From: Jiangella ureilytica
GTDB lineage: Bacteria; Actinomycetota; Actinomycetes; Jiangellales; Jiangellaceae
Direction: 5' to 3'
DNA length: 64,000 nt
NCBI RefSeq assembly: GCF_004348545.1
Contig: NZ_SMKL01000001.1
Span: 1 to 64,000, forward strand
This document shows positions 41,391 to 50,999 of the stretch, in pieces; positions within the stretch are counted from its first letter, which is position 1; each line of letters starts with the position of its first letter. The position numbers and the translations under genes are program-made. The notes beneath the pieces are model-generated. The model had not been told where the DNA came from. It did not search any database and worked only from the letters and a program-made list of their open reading frames with translations.

Positions 41391-41942
41391 TCAGGCGCGC
41401 TGCGGCCGGTAGGCGTGCGCCACGATGCCGCTGGGGAACGACACGGCCTCGACGAGGTCCAGGTGCCGCGATTCCGGCAGCTGGTCGAACAGCGCCCGCC
41501 CCTGGCCCAGCACCAATGGCTGGACGAGGAGACGGTACTCGTCGATCAGGTCCGCCGCGGCCAGAGCGCCGGCGAACCGTCCGCCGCCCCACGCGACCAC
41601 GTCCGGGCCGGGCGCGGCCTTGACCGCGGCGACCTCGGCCGCGAGGTCACCCCGAGCGACCTGAGTGACCGGCCAGGTCGCCTCGGCGTCGCTGAGCGTC
41701 CTGGAGAACACGACCTTGGGGATGTCGTTCATCGGAGCCGCGTACGGGTCGTCCGAGTGCTGCCAGAACGACGCCATCTGCTGGTACGTGACGCGGCCCA
41801 TGAGGTGGGCGCCGGCCGTGCTGATGCGGTCGAGCTTCCACTGCTTGAGCTCGGCGCCCTCGGGGATCGTCCCGGGGTGCTCCCGGTCGCTGTCGACGAA
41901 CCCGTCCAGTGACATCGACATGTACAGAATGACGTCTCGCAT
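41391..41942 (-). CDS. RibD C-terminal/DHFR-like reductase (paralogue 1)
   Basis: A 183-residue reductase-fold protein of the same family as its neighbour: VILYMSMSLDGFVDSDREHP, LMGRVTYQQMASFW, VVAWGGGRFAGALAAADLID and VQPLVLGQGRALFDQL. ATG 41942 is preceded by gaggagagatggg; the frame is open further upstream without support. Its promoter region now borders the left end of the IS element, which lies 115 bases upstream of the start. Confidence 0.87.
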   Translation of the reverse strand: MRDVILYMSMSLDGFVDSDREHPGTIPEGAELKQWKLDRISTAGAHLMGRVTYQQMASFWQHSDDPYAAPMNDIPKVVFSRTLSDAEATWPVTQVARGDLAAEVAAVKAAPGPDVVAWGGGRFAGALAAADLIDEYRLLVQPLVLGQGRALFDQLPESRHLDLVEAVSFPSGIVAHAYRPQRA

Positions 41943-42045
41943 GACCCATCTCTCCTCGACGACACGAGCGGCTGGCAAGCCGTTCCGTTCCCACCGCATC
42001 ATGAGGCTGCTTCATCTCTGCTTCATGCCGCTGCCGACCGGCAGC

Positions 42046-42061
42046 TAGAACATTCGTTCTG
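42046..42061. promoter_or_regulatory. Left remnant of an IS-split SOS-box-like sequence
   Basis: tagaacattcgttctg: the GAAC-N4-GTTC core of an actinobacterial LexA box survives here because the insertion duplicated the target, but the 3' outer bases now come from the IS. It lies about 104 bases upstream of the reductase gene read leftward. Confidence 0.45.
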
Positions 42062-42209
42062 CATATCTGCTTAGGTCAAGTGCGACAGTGGCGCGGGCGT
42101 TGATCATGGACTCGGGCCTGCTCCTTGCTGTGATCCGAGGTGCCGTGGGCGCCAGGCGTAAGCTCCGGGATATTGGCGGGGACTAACTGGTTGGCATGAG
42201 GGGCGGCGA

Positions 42210-42668
42210 GTGTACATAGGCGAACTGGTCCGTGCGAGTGCGTCCACGACGGATGAGGATCTCTCCTTTGGTCCTCCAGTCATCGCCGCGACGGTGGTGC
42301 TCATCGCGGGCGGGCTGTGGCTGCTGAGCCGCTGGCGCTCCGCGTGGTCCGGCGCTGGTTCGTCCCGCATCGTGCCGGCTGATCGTGGCGCGCTGGTCTT
42401 GGAATCGATTCACCCGTACGCGGGCATCCCCATCCTCAGTCTCGGCGTGATGCTGCTGGTCATTGGCGTGACGGCGTCGGTTTCCGGGCCAGTGTCAGAC
42501 GTCCTCTGGGCGATCACGAGTCTGGTCATGCTCGCCACAGCGGTCAGCTGGGGACTTCTCGCGACGATCGCCCTGTTCAACCGACCGAAGAGCCTGGTTC
42601 CCCCGCATGCCCGCGACTCCAACGGCTATCTGGGCGACCTCGGCACTGGGGGTAGGCGCGGCGGCTGA
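42210..42668 (+). CDS. IS passenger gene: three-span membrane protein
   Basis: A 152-residue protein of unknown function carried inside the IS, on the strand opposite the transposase. Three membrane spans: PPVIAATVVLIAGGLWLLSR, IPILSLGVMLLVIGVTAS, and LWAITSLVMLATAVSWGLLA. The tail is hydrophilic (RPKSLVPPHARDSNGYLGDL). GTG 42210 has a gggcggcgag stretch just upstream. It is less G+C-rich in codon choice than its neighbours, consistent with transfer. IS1595-family elements are known to carry unrelated passenger genes; I do not recognise this one. Confidence 0.7.
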   Translation: MYIGELVRASASTTDEDLSFGPPVIAATVVLIAGGLWLLSRWRSAWSGAGSSRIVPADRGALVLESIHPYAGIPILSLGVMLLVIGVTASVSGPVSDVLWAITSLVMLATAVSWGLLATIALFNRPKSLVPPHARDSNGYLGDLGTGGRRGG

Positions 42669-42780
42669 TCTTCTTGCCCGGCCGCTCATCGGTCGCCCTC
42701 CCGTCGGCTTGTGGAGGCCATGGCGGCACCCTGCAGATTCCCGCGATCGACAAGGTTCCGCGGATCTGCTTGTGTCAAAG

Positions 42781-43752
42781 TCACCATCCGGCGTCGCCGA
42801 GTCGTTGCAGGTCATGCAGTGGGTGGGGGTCGGTGGCGACGGCTTGCTGGAGGAGCCGGTAGAACAGCAGGCCGCGCTTGTGGGCGGTGCGGCGGTTGAA
42901 CCGGAAGATGTATTCGTGGAGGTAGTAGGGCAGCTGCTCGGTGCTGACGCGATGATGCAGGGTGCCGGCGATCCAGCGCTTGAGCAGGGACGCAATCAGG
43001 TGCACGCCGGGCAGCACCGCGGACTTGTCCGCGGCGTCGTAGCCGGTGGTGTCGTGGTGGGTGTAGCCCATGTCGGCCAGCCGGCGCAGCCCTCGGGCGC
43101 CGTCGGTGTGGATGGTCGAACCGGGCTCGACGACACCAGCGGCGAAGGTGACCAGCTGCAAGGTACCGGGCGCGGCGGCGATCTGGGCGCGCATGCGACC
43201 CAGCCGCTGGCCCTCGCTGCGCTCGACGGCAACCATGACGGGGACCTTGTCCCCGCCCGCGCCGGCGGTGCCGACGTCGACGCCGCCGACCATCACCTCG
43301 TCGACCTCGACCGTCCCGGACAGCCGGTCCCGGTCGGGTCGCACCATGGCTCGGCGCAGCTTGTGCAACCAGGCCCAGGCGGTCTCGTACGAGCCGAACC
43401 CCAGCACCCGCTGCAGACCCAGCGCGGACACGCCGTTCTTCTGGGAGGTCACGAACCAGATCGCGGCGAACCACGTCGCCAGCGGCGTGCGGGTCCGGTG
43501 GAAGATCGTGCCCGCGGTGACCGACGTCTGCCGCCCACAGGCCGCGCACATGAGCAGCCCCTTGCCGGTGCGCCAGCACGCGCCCGCGCCGCAACGCGGG
43601 CAGACGAACCCGTCCGGCCAGCGCAGCCGCTCTAGGTACTCCAGGCACGCACGGTTGTCCGGGAACCAGGCCAGCAGCTCCTGATACGTCCCCGGGTAGT
43701 CCGCGCCCGCCACCGGATGGCGGCATTCATGATCACCGCTCACGCCCACCAT
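42781..43752 (-). CDS. IS1595-family (ISXO2-like) transposase
   Basis: A 323-residue transposase. The N-terminal IS1595 zinc ribbon reads RWPDGFVCPRCGAGACWR...LLMCAACGRQ; an HTH region follows (FGSYETAWAWLHKLRRAMVR). The ISXO2-like catalytic core has VEVDEVMVGG, THTDGARGLRRL-type Asp, and YLHEYIFRFNRR. No frameshift or stop was seen. ATG 43752 lies within the right inverted repeat, leaving no room for an internal promoter; GTG at 43713, before the conserved ADYPGTYQELLAWFPDN, is an alternative start. Confidence 0.92.
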   Translation of the reverse strand: MVGVSGDHECRHPVAGADYPGTYQELLAWFPDNRACLEYLERLRWPDGFVCPRCGAGACWRTGKGLLMCAACGRQTSVTAGTIFHRTRTPLATWFAAIWFVTSQKNGVSALGLQRVLGFGSYETAWAWLHKLRRAMVRPDRDRLSGTVEVDEVMVGGVDVGTAGAGGDKVPVMVAVERSEGQRLGRMRAQIAAAPGTLQLVTFAAGVVEPGSTIHTDGARGLRRLADMGYTHHDTTGYDAADKSAVLPGVHLIASLLKRWIAGTLHHRVSTEQLPYYLHEYIFRFNRRTAHKRGLLFYRLLQQAVATDPHPLHDLQRLGDAGW

Positions 43753-43775
43753 CGTACTTGATTTAAGCAGATATG

Positions 43776-43791
43776 CAGAACATTCGTTCGA
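43776..43791 (+). promoter_or_regulatory. Candidate LexA (SOS) box before alkB
   Basis: cagaacattcgttcga fits the actinobacterial/Bacillus-type LexA consensus TCGAAC-N4-GTTCGA at 14 of 16 positions with a perfect GAAC-N4-GTTC core. It ends 19 bases before the alkB ATG. Its first bases are the IS terminus: the insertion duplicated the target and thereby recreated the operator. The uninterrupted site would have been TAGAAC-ATTC-GTTCGA (one mismatch). Confidence 0.6.
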
Positions 43792-43810
43792 ATACGGCTA
43801 GTGTGGACGA

Positions 43811-44446
43811 ATGAGCGTAGCGTTCCAAGCCTCTCTGCTCGACGGCGTCAGCGGCGGCGCCTCGCTGGGTCCGCTCGGCCACACCGTCGAGCGCACCGTC
43901 CTCACCCTCGGCGCCTGGGTCGACGTCCGGCGCGGCTGGGTCGACGGGTCCGACCAGCTCTTCACCGGCCTCGTCGAGTCGGTCCCGTGGCGGGCGGAGC
44001 GGCGCACCATGTACGACCGCGTGGTCGACGTGCCGCGGCTGGTCCGCTTCTACGGCGACGGCGAGCCGCTGCCCGACCCGCTGCTGACCGAGGCGCGCGA
44101 CGCGCTGAGCCGGCACTACGGCGCCGAGCTGGGCGAGCCGTTCACCACCGCCGGCATGTGCTTCTACCGCGACGGCCGCGACAGCGTCGCCTGGCACGGC
44201 GACACCATCGGGCGCAGCAGTACCGAGGACACCATGGTCGCCATCGTGTCGCTCGGGGCGCCGCGGTCGCTGCTGCTGCGCCAGCGCGGCGGCGGCAGCG
44301 CGACCCTGCGCTTCGCCGTCGGCCACGGCGACCTGCTGGTCATGGGCGGGTCGTGTCAGCGCACGTGGGAGCACGCGGTCCCGAAGACCGCCAAGCCGGT
44401 CGGGCCGCGCATCAGCGTCCAGTTCCGCCCCAGGGGAGTGCGCTAG
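43811..44446 (+). CDS. alkB: AlkB-type 2-oxoglutarate/Fe(II) DNA-repair dioxygenase
   Basis: A 211-residue oxidative demethylase homologue that repairs alkylated bases (1-methyladenine/3-methylcytosine type). Iron ligands are visible: WHGD (His129, Asp131) and WEHAVPKT (His188), followed by the 2-oxoglutarate-binding RISVQFRPRG. GDLLVMGGSCQRTWEH is the AlkB-type strand. ATG 43811 lies right behind the candidate SOS box, which fits DNA-damage induction. Its TAG shares bases with the stop of the opposing amine oxidase (ctag). Confidence 0.88.
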   Translation: MSVAFQASLLDGVSGGASLGPLGHTVERTVLTLGAWVDVRRGWVDGSDQLFTGLVESVPWRAERRTMYDRVVDVPRLVRFYGDGEPLPDPLLTEARDALSRHYGAELGEPFTTAGMCFYRDGRDSVAWHGDTIGRSSTEDTMVAIVSLGAPRSLLLRQRGGGSATLRFAVGHGDLLVMGGSCQRTWEHAVPKTAKPVGPRISVQFRPRGVR

Positions 44447-49600: not shown

Positions 49601-50999
49601 CGGCGCGGCCGTCAGCGGCGACGACCTGTACCTGGCCGGCTTGGACGCCGTCTGGGCGGTCCGCGGCGTGCTGGCCGGCGAGCCGACCGGCAGCGACACC
49701 GTCTACACGACGCAGGACGGGTTCGTCGAGGGCCTGGCCGCCACGGGCGACGGCGAGACCGTCGTCGCGCTGGTCGACGACGTCGTCCACGGCACCAGCG
49801 ACGGCGGCGCCACCTGGGCCGAGCTGTACCCCGTCCCGGACGGCGGCGCCCTCGACATCCTCGTCAGCGACGACCTGATCACGGTGACGACGTACCGCGA
49901 CGTCCAGCACGTCAGCCGCGACGGCGGCGCGACATGGGAGCAGCTGCCCGAGCCGATCAACGGCGCCGTCGAGGACGACGTCCAGCCGTGGGCCGGCGGG
50001 CTGCTGTGGTCGTCGCCGGGCGCCGGGCTCTTCCTCACCGGCGACGACGGCGCCGACCCGCGGCGCATCGGCGTCCAGGGCAGCACCATCCACGACCTCG
50101 AGATCGCCGACGACGACGGCACGCCGCGGCTGCTCGCCGGCACCGACACCGACGTCTACGCGACCGACCTGCCGACCCGGCCGAAACTGCCGGCCGGCGG
50201 GGCGGAGTGGGGGCTGTCGGGCTACGAGGCCTACGTCGGCACCCGCATCGGCCAGCTCGCCGTCGACCCGCAGGACCCGCAGACGGTGTGGAAGATCCGT
50301 AAGGACGCGCTGTCGCAGTTCTGGGTCTACCGCAGCGGCGACGGCGGCAGGGAGTGGGAGCTGCGCGGGCGCACCTACGAGGTGCCGCTCGACCTGGTCG
50401 TGGGGACGGCTGACTCCGGCACCGTGGCGGTCTCGTTCTGGAGCCTCGGCGGGACCGGCCTCTACGTCACCCGCGACGGCGGCACCGTGTGGCGCAAGTT
50501 CTTCCACGACCAGCTGTTCTGGTCCGTCGCCACCGATCCCGCGACCCCCGAGCGGCTCTGGCTGGCCAGCGACGACGGCCTGTACCGCAGCGACGACTTC
50601 GGCATCACGGCGGAGAAGGTCGTCGACGGGCGGTACACGACGGTGGCCGTCCACGGTGACCGCGTGATCGCCGCCGGCCCGGCGATCCGGGTCAGCGACG
50701 ACGGCGGCGCCACCTGGCACGACGCCGACACCGGCGGGCTGCCGATGCTGGTCGGCGACCTGGTCGTGTCGCCGTCGGACCCGGACGTCTGGTACGCCGC
50801 GACCGGCTCGTTCGACGCCAACGGGCTGATCAAGGGCGGCCGAGGCGTGCTGCGCAGCACCGACGGCGGGCGCAGCTGGACGAACGTGTCCGGCGGCCTG
50901 CAGAACCTGTCGGTCGTGTCACTGGAGATCAGCCCGGACGGCCGGTGGCTCTACGCCGGCACCCAGCTCGGCGGCGTGCACCGGGTGCGCACGAGGTAG
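46671..50999 (+). CDS. Secreted subtilisin-like protease fused to an Asp-box β-propeller
   Basis: A 1442-residue exported serine protease. Order: signal peptide (~residues 1-40); I9-type propeptide (HEFTGLVHAVALTVAAEDVA); S8 domain with Asp173 (AVIDTGIDY), His212 (NGHGTHVAGI) and Ser552 (SGTSMAAPHVAG), interrupted by a PA domain; a β-sandwich; then from residue ~860 a propeller with about nine BNR/Asp-box repeats (DDGGETW, EDGGATW, SDGGATW, RDGGATW, GDGGREW, TDGGRSW). Sortilin/exosialidase-like propellers bind glycans or proteins, so the C-terminus probably targets the protease. ATG 46671 (or 46674) is the start; an upstream in-frame ATG at 46635 would precede the signal peptide. Confidence 0.9.
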   Translation: MMIARRLRAGSGAALAVALAAAGLTPLVAGTAPEAGAAPEAEQDTRVIVVMAGPDGEPGGPAAGASATASAQTERAAVAAQRTMLTAAADQGIDAEVEHEFTGLVHAVALTVAAEDVAALDDLPGVAGVVPDERIRAATDVSVPLIGAPEVWERQAPGGAPADGTGTIVAVIDTGIDYTNPSLGGGFGEGHKVVAGYDFVNRDADPMDDNGHGTHVAGIVAGTGAGTPETTGVAPGALLTAYKVLDGWGAGYESDIIAGLEAAVDPANPYRADVVNLSLGGPGDGTDPLGLAATAATEAGVVVVAAAGNAGPGEQTMGSPALADGVLSVGASASGLVLPSARLTAPRDEPIDTFRAPFSAPAPTTPVVGELVDVGDGYEEDYDRVGDVTGKVVAYRQNLPRSLADVAPFLVEQARLAEERGALALIAYTGGGGGPVLFDEPAAAAAAEPGVVDVALPGVLEEPGESFRLDRLVVMGLLEMQWEQLSRDLAAGPVHIEISGQDVTDQIASFSSRGPAPDFDLEPDVVAPGVEIRSTWPLEFWAPGVYRISGTSMAAPHVAGAAALLRQLRPDESVADTNGRLTGSAVAVEGTGPTTSGAGRVDVAAAVDSALIAAPTSVSLGLADLSGPTIGGSGTTTLRNPGDTDVAVTLAAEQATAAIGTATVTPSQATIPAGGELEVTVTVAADTPAQDADLAGWIVATTTGSSGATGATVRVPYLLAARHLVVQTSPDPSDGTSEAFIWSPAPLTEPPTVTVTPPRGRPVTVRAEHDYDSWYRAELTGSRAGAYAVAVTAGTTLGATVTGRTSFEVTAPTGNSGNPAAWQPIGPNTSAGPITVSGADPDVAAVTQYTKAGPWTTDDGGETWRQHNRLPVAAGSGNDNLVIAADDPDTMWYAVNAATGLSFGVRLDNTYEGRILRSEDGGATWRQLDVPDAHTIALLSDPQTRVLVAVRPDSIIVSRDGGDGWASYPNPAGSDLTGAAVSGDDLYLAGLDAVWAVRGVLAGEPTGSDTVYTTQDGFVEGLAATGDGETVVALVDDVVHGTSDGGATWAELYPVPDGGALDILVSDDLITVTTYRDVQHVSRDGGATWEQLPEPINGAVEDDVQPWAGGLLWSSPGAGLFLTGDDGADPRRIGVQGSTIHDLEIADDDGTPRLLAGTDTDVYATDLPTRPKLPAGGAEWGLSGYEAYVGTRIGQLAVDPQDPQTVWKIRKDALSQFWVYRSGDGGREWELRGRTYEVPLDLVVGTADSGTVAVSFWSLGGTGLYVTRDGGTVWRKFFHDQLFWSVATDPATPERLWLASDDGLYRSDDFGITAEKVVDGRYTTVAVHGDRVIAAGPAIRVSDDGGATWHDADTGGLPMLVGDLVVSPSDPDVWYAATGSFDANGLIKGGRGVLRSTDGGRSWTNVSGGLQNLSVVSLEISPDGRWLYAGTQLGGVHRVRTR

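Follow-up and report, generated by a model that had tools for sequence, protein, structure and literature searches.

An insertion sequence (IS) that lies in the centre of a LexA box raises the question of whether it arrived there by chance or whether its transposase selects SOS operators. Such a case is present in the window, a 64,000-nucleotide stretch of the Jiangella ureilytica genome. A 1722-bp IS of the IS1595 family (42058–43779, minus strand, with the orientation taken from the transposase), recognised by its inverted repeat, its duplication and ends, and its transposase domains, interrupts the 8-bp centre ACATTCGT of a LexA box located 5′ of alkB. The IS begins with TCTGCATATCTGCTTA and ends with TAAGCAGATATGCAGA, inside a 36-nt inverted repeat with 86% identity; the terminal repeat distal to the transposase start (TCTGCATATCTGCTTAGGTCAAGT) occupies 42058–42081 on the plus strand, and the one at the transposase start, which includes the presumed −35 region, occupies 43756–43779 on the minus strand. 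The copies of the 8-bp target duplication are located at 42050–42057 and 43780–43787. The rejoined flanks form TAGAACATTCGTTCGA, that is, the box TAGAAC-ATTC-GTTCGA of the actinobacterial LexA-box type, with one mismatch to TCGAAC-N4-GTTCGA. Thus, the ends, the duplication and the rejoined flanks agree with the original prediction, which placed the IS in the centre of a LexA box with a target duplication.

The GAAC-N4-GTTC core is intact at both junctions (42048–42059 on the left and 43778–43789 on the right), because the IS termini contribute TC and GA. As for the full 16-mers, the left junction box TAGAACATTCGTTCTG (42046–42061) has three mismatches to the consensus, and the right junction box CAGAACATTCGTTCGA (43776–43791) has two. 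The right box is situated between the divergent transposase and alkB genes; the gap between it and the alkB ATG (43811) is exactly 19 bases, as had been predicted, and the first ATG of the transposase (43752, minus strand) is 23 nt away from it. The alkB gene (43811–44446, plus strand) encodes an alkB-like 2OG-Fe(II) oxygenase, assigned by PF13532 (E 1.8e-15) and by orthologues. Its presumed −10 element TAGTGT is at 43799–43804 (plus strand), and TAGNNT or a similar motif occurs at the equivalent place in relatives from the genus. The left box stands about 44 bp 5′ of a RibD C-terminal-domain gene (41391–42002, minus strand; PF01872), which is divergent from alkB on the far side of the original operator and is the same neighbour in the G002 and G006 genomes of the genus. 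Gene calls were based on GC-frame open reading frames and profile matches.

The transposase (42781–43752, minus strand) contains a zinc ribbon (PF12760, E 4.5e-12, 46.2 bits) and an ISXO2-like/IS1595-type DDE domain (PF12762, E 4e-23, 82.5 bits), both above the cut-off, and its D151, D217 and E280 residues are conserved in the alignment. The terminal inverted repeats and the 8-bp target duplication are also traits of the IS1595 family. The protein is 49% identical to the ISCsp2 transposase, yet the two belong to separate clades on the tree. ISPa75 was rejected as a member of this family since it is an IS66 element. The AlphaFold model (mean pLDDT 74.5) consists only of zinc-ribbon, helical and RNase-H-like parts, and according to this model the core is an RNase-H-like DDE fold. 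A fold search with the model produced nothing beyond generic DDE/integrase hits, whose TM-scores were low, and a sequence search among solved structures found no match except weak zinc-ribbon hits. Neither the window protein nor the actinobacterial alignment retrieved anything useful in searches of viral contigs. The passenger genes located 3′ of the transposase vary: a 152-aa open reading frame without a Pfam match in the variable part of the window IS (42210–42668, plus strand; a possible passenger), a methyltransferase (L075:3580-4356) and the immunity protein Imm8 (L127:3090-3446).

The operator without the insertion can be seen in the sister genome G001, which pairs with the J. ureilytica genome (G000) on the alkB tree with a support of 100/100. 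The G001 operator, GTAGAACATTCGTTCGAACACGG, is uninterrupted and has the identical central 8-mer, so that the empty site proposed as a check of the prediction exists and contains the palindrome. The RibD–alkB arrangement is also kept, without the IS, in G002. In G006, another species of the genus outside the G000–G001 pair, a decayed element of the same kind is found in the same operator; its end reads TTCAGA, followed directly by ACATACGTTCGAA. The G006 and G000 copies are 89–91% identical, about as diverged as their flanks, and the position of G006 in the genus is fixed only as outside the G000–G001 pair. A single ancestral insertion common to both genomes is disfavoured by the empty site of G001, the sister of G000; most simply, the G006 copy would be an independent insertion.

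That the operator is a LexA box and that alkB is under SOS control was part of the prediction, and both the conservation of the box and published data on relatives speak in its favour. A match to alkB was found in 93 of the 148 genomes searched, and a box with two or fewer mismatches was present in the 70 bp upstream of alkB at all 29 loci with upstream DNA examined, with its end 16–27 bp 5′ of the matched start; among the shuffled controls, two mismatches were reached in only 0.2%, and none scored better. The SOS-box match stands at promoter distance, with one mismatch in the empty site and two in the right junction, 19 bp before alkB. The strict motif TNGAAYN4RTTCNA occurs only five times in the 6.3-Mb genome of J. 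ureilytica, and a box of the alkB type also precedes recA and imuA′ there. For Streptomyces venezuelae, LexA control of alkB has been published, with a ChIP-seq peak, an altered RNA-seq signal and a box validated at −20 as evidence (PMC9380542); it has likewise been published for Mycobacterium tuberculosis, in which alkB, imuA′ and five HNH genes depend on RecA (PMC8151990). The sequence evidence and these relatives support the reading of the alkB box as a LexA operator. The right junction box is in a suitable position for the control of alkB and presumably also of the transposase.

Relatives of the IS were gathered from public genomes by transposase sequence alone, blind to the target, which gave 61 loci. 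At the 40 resolvable loci of the actinobacterial clade (tree support 100/99), among which are the window IS and a copy on a plasmid, the IS ends and the duplications were examined. An in-register half-box adjoining an end, matched at six or more of eight positions, was found at 33 of these 40 loci. At 55 of 71 ends, at least seven of the eight defined positions of ACN4GT+TCGA were matched, against a background of 0.0004 per position. Where the duplication is perfect, 23 of 25 insertions lie within two mismatches of TCGAAC-N4-GTTCGA, with the cut at an identical position. The genome of Humibacillus xanthopallidus has only six occurrences of the strict motif, and yet each of its four copies of the IS is in a box. 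These insertions, most of which are in LexA boxes, strongly support the suggestion that SOS operators are favoured targets.

The remaining seven loci, mostly Micrococcaceae copies, are outside recognisable boxes. Copies of Micrococcaceae and Cryobacterium (L084, L088, L094, L113, L117 and L118) show this mostly, which may be due to less strict targeting, to decay or to a host box of another kind. At five loci (L073, L074, L075, L080 and L095), the 8-mers on the two sides are unlike and half-boxes are present on both, a pattern that recombination between copies located in different SOS operators would produce. Tandem like copies with one 8-bp box centre between them can also be noted, ACATGCGA in the J. 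ureilytica genome outside the window (G000:C80, about 136032–142400) and ACACATGT in the right part of L089, the arrangement that would arise if a further copy inserted into the junction box of an earlier one. The L116 contig is deposited as part of an acidobacterial MAG, but it is probably a mis-binned actinobacterial contig, because its IS copy groups with the mycobacterial subclade and adjoins a DUF222 gene.

The genes behind the boxes were then compared. At 16 box loci, this is a DUF222/HNH gene of the 13E12 type, identified by Pfam or by the HNH motif CRxPGCxVPAxxCDLDH; the loci with a box near the HNH start are L066–L069, L072, L073, L076, L081, L085, L091, L101 and L116. At many of the 13E12-type loci, the start codon is in or beside the duplicated 8-mer, and the duplication therefore restores it after insertion. 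Genes of this type often have a LexA box on or beside the start codon, for example ACATATGTTCGAA, which is read as M F E. The target at L095 is imuA′ (NCBIfam E 9e-50), and alkB is the target in the window and in G006. HNH, imuA′ and alkB gene types are described as LexA-regulated in M. tuberculosis (PMC8151990, PMC4181829), and the identified targets of the actinobacterial clade are of LexA-regulon types.

A second box type is found in the ISCsp2 clade of Pseudomonadota (support 100/100), which is set among non-targeting lineages on the tree. At 11 of 12 ends, a CTGT is separated from the IS by exactly 8 bp; the twelfth has CTGG. The LexA consensus of beta- and gamma-proteobacteria is CTGT-N8-ACAG (PMC13393415), and the ISCsp2 clade inserts at the centre of this box. 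A perfect duplication, AATACTGT-GCATTTGT-ACAGTATT, is present in Diaphorobacter MNS-0; the same site is empty in plasmid pADP-1, where it is the promoter of ISPps1. ISPps1 is an IS91-like element with a perfect LexA box at its transposase start (L165, pADP-1 50000-50700; also L129 and L166), so here one mobile element uses the SOS operator of another. LexA binding and SOS control were demonstrated for an ISCR8 amplified from Pseudomonas sp. ADP (PMC13393415), and from the shared strain we infer that it is the same element as the present ISPps1. Other targets of the clade are umuD in pDCB3 and SRAP/YedK-type genes in L134 and L135; L137 has a perfect CTGT-ATGGATAT-ACAG site. From a CTGTN8AAGGGGTATC scan, only the L222 locus was used, which is the same contig as L135.

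The resolved ends of outgroup elements (Gemmatimonadota, Bacteroidota, Legionella, Methylocella, Methylomagnum and two Actinomycetota) score 1.86 of 8, which is the chance level, and no boxes were found at distant relatives on viral contigs. The characterised IS1595-family element ISEc69 has AT-rich 8-mers as its insertion sites (PMC7835479), whereas the present clade and ISCsp2 insert into LexA boxes. Since the outgroups are at chance and ISEc69 uses AT-rich sites, a palindrome preference general to IS1595 was rejected, and operator targeting is a property of particular clades, either gained at least twice or ancestral with losses. No earlier report of operator targeting in the IS1595 family was found among open-licence papers; subscription journals may hold one.

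The transposase promoter bears on what the insertion means for the element itself. A TANNNT −10 motif at about IS positions 24–29, with the start codon close behind it as in a leaderless transcript, is conserved in relatives; in the window, the presumed −10 is TACGAT (43751–43756, minus strand), placed by the equivalent IS position. This motif overlaps the first ATG of the window transposase, and for this reason translation may in fact begin three codons further on, at the GTG. With the −10 inside the IS, the IS terminus coincides with the −35 region, and the centre of the box comes to stand about 40 bp 5′ of the transcription start. The box thus overlies the expected −35 region, which makes a damage-inducible transposase plausible. 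The predicted survival of the operator was borne out in part: the core is kept at both ends here, but only the subgroup with TC...GA termini rebuilds it; this does not happen in the subgroups ending in AC...GT, AT...AT or CC...GG. Because the core is complete in this copy and incomplete in the AC, AT and CC subgroups, LexA control should differ in strength among subgroups. Likewise, SOS control of the transposase cannot be general in one form, since the transposase-proximal half-box is rebuilt only in the TC...GA subgroup.

With high confidence, the window can be regarded as containing one insertion of an IS1595-family (ISXO2-like) lineage whose transposase targets LexA operators with high fidelity. 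Two strand cuts 8 bp apart, symmetric about the operator dyad, duplicate the central ACN4GT. The operator would be recognised as the target either through bound LexA or through the box sequence itself. Because the IS terminus supplies the −35 region of the leaderless promoter and the −10 lies further inside, landing in a LexA box would place the transposase under LexA repression, and transposition should then rise after DNA damage. In the window copy, the TC...GA termini would rebuild GAAC-N4-GTTC at both ends, so that the box is proposed to keep acting on alkB. For an insertion into an SOS box by mere chance, it can be said only that every insertion lands somewhere; the census, with the same register in 33 of the 40 loci, and the second insertion in the same operator in G006 refute this explanation almost completely. 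It might also be supposed that the 5′ ends of 13E12/HNH genes are the true target, a repeatedly used safe site, and that alkB is an occasional exception, as the sixteen box loci at DUF222/HNH genes could indicate. This is very improbable: the two alkB insertions, imuA′ and other neighbours do not fit, nor does the ISCsp2 clade at umuD, SRAP and ISPps1, and the box is the sole feature common to the sites.

Two readings of how the operator is recognised are left to be weighed. The transposase or its complex may be drawn to DNA-bound LexA, with the symmetric LexA dimer setting the dyad of the insertion, which we consider a little short of an even chance. In each of the two separate clades, the box used is the LexA box of the hosts concerned, and the two boxes are unrelated. 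The hit sites are at LexA-regulon promoters, while of 15 loosely box-like sequences sampled from the J. ureilytica genome, 10 fall inside genes. However, the promoter bias could also be produced by selection against insertions within genes, the Pfam domains and the model of the transposase show no contact surface or extra domain, and no clade member has been seen with both box types. Alternatively, the transposase itself would recognise the palindrome, which is TCGA-8-TCGA for one clade and CTGT-8-ACAG for the second; lineages preferring LexA operators would have had an advantage, as insertions at such sites are mild and confer SOS control. The fixed cut positions within both palindromes are consistent with this direct recognition, as are the tandem copies in L089 and C80, where a junction with one native half-site can be re-hit; on the other hand, it requires two independent convergences on LexA boxes, and the outgroups and ISEc69 (PMC7835479) have no palindrome preference. 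Because two clades track two unrelated boxes, we lean slightly towards guidance by LexA, and direct recognition is nearly as likely. Tentatively, and with rather less than even confidence, it can be proposed that the transposase uses operator-bound LexA as an address, that the motif follows the host LexA (GAAC-N4-GTTC in Actinomycetota, CTGT-N8-ACAG in beta- and gamma-Proteobacteria), and that landing gives SOS control of the transposase.

With the ISXO2-like group of IS1595, including ISCsp2, the window IS shares the transposase domains, terminal inverted repeats, 8-bp duplications and variable passenger genes. Protein-guided target choice is known for yeast Ty1 and Ty3 at Pol III genes and for Tn7 with TnsD and TnsE. 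These systems would be a model for the window IS if bound LexA marks the site; in contrast to them, it has no accessory targeting gene, and the contact between LexA and the transposase is hypothetical here. The IS91-like ISCR1 and ISCR8 also have the transposase gene beneath a LexA box (PMC13393415), but there the box is part of the element, whereas the window IS obtains its box from the target on insertion, and the transposases are of unrelated classes, HUH and DDE, respectively. A possible link between SOS and transposase expression also exists in Tn5/IS50, for which LexA repression of the transposase gene was reported and is cited as disputed (PMC13393415); this element has its own site, and no SOS-box target preference is claimed for it there.

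The insertions of relatives at SOS switches in many bacteria suggest a mobile element that aims at damage-response operators. If this is true, the element picks its own regulation through its landing place, and the target site becomes the operator of the transposase, so that damage would trigger repair and transposition together. The copies would rewire or recombine SOS promoters, and they would provide a natural readout of LexA operators across genomes. Such a system would also suit a simple genetic comparison of protein-guided and sequence-guided target choice in bacteria.
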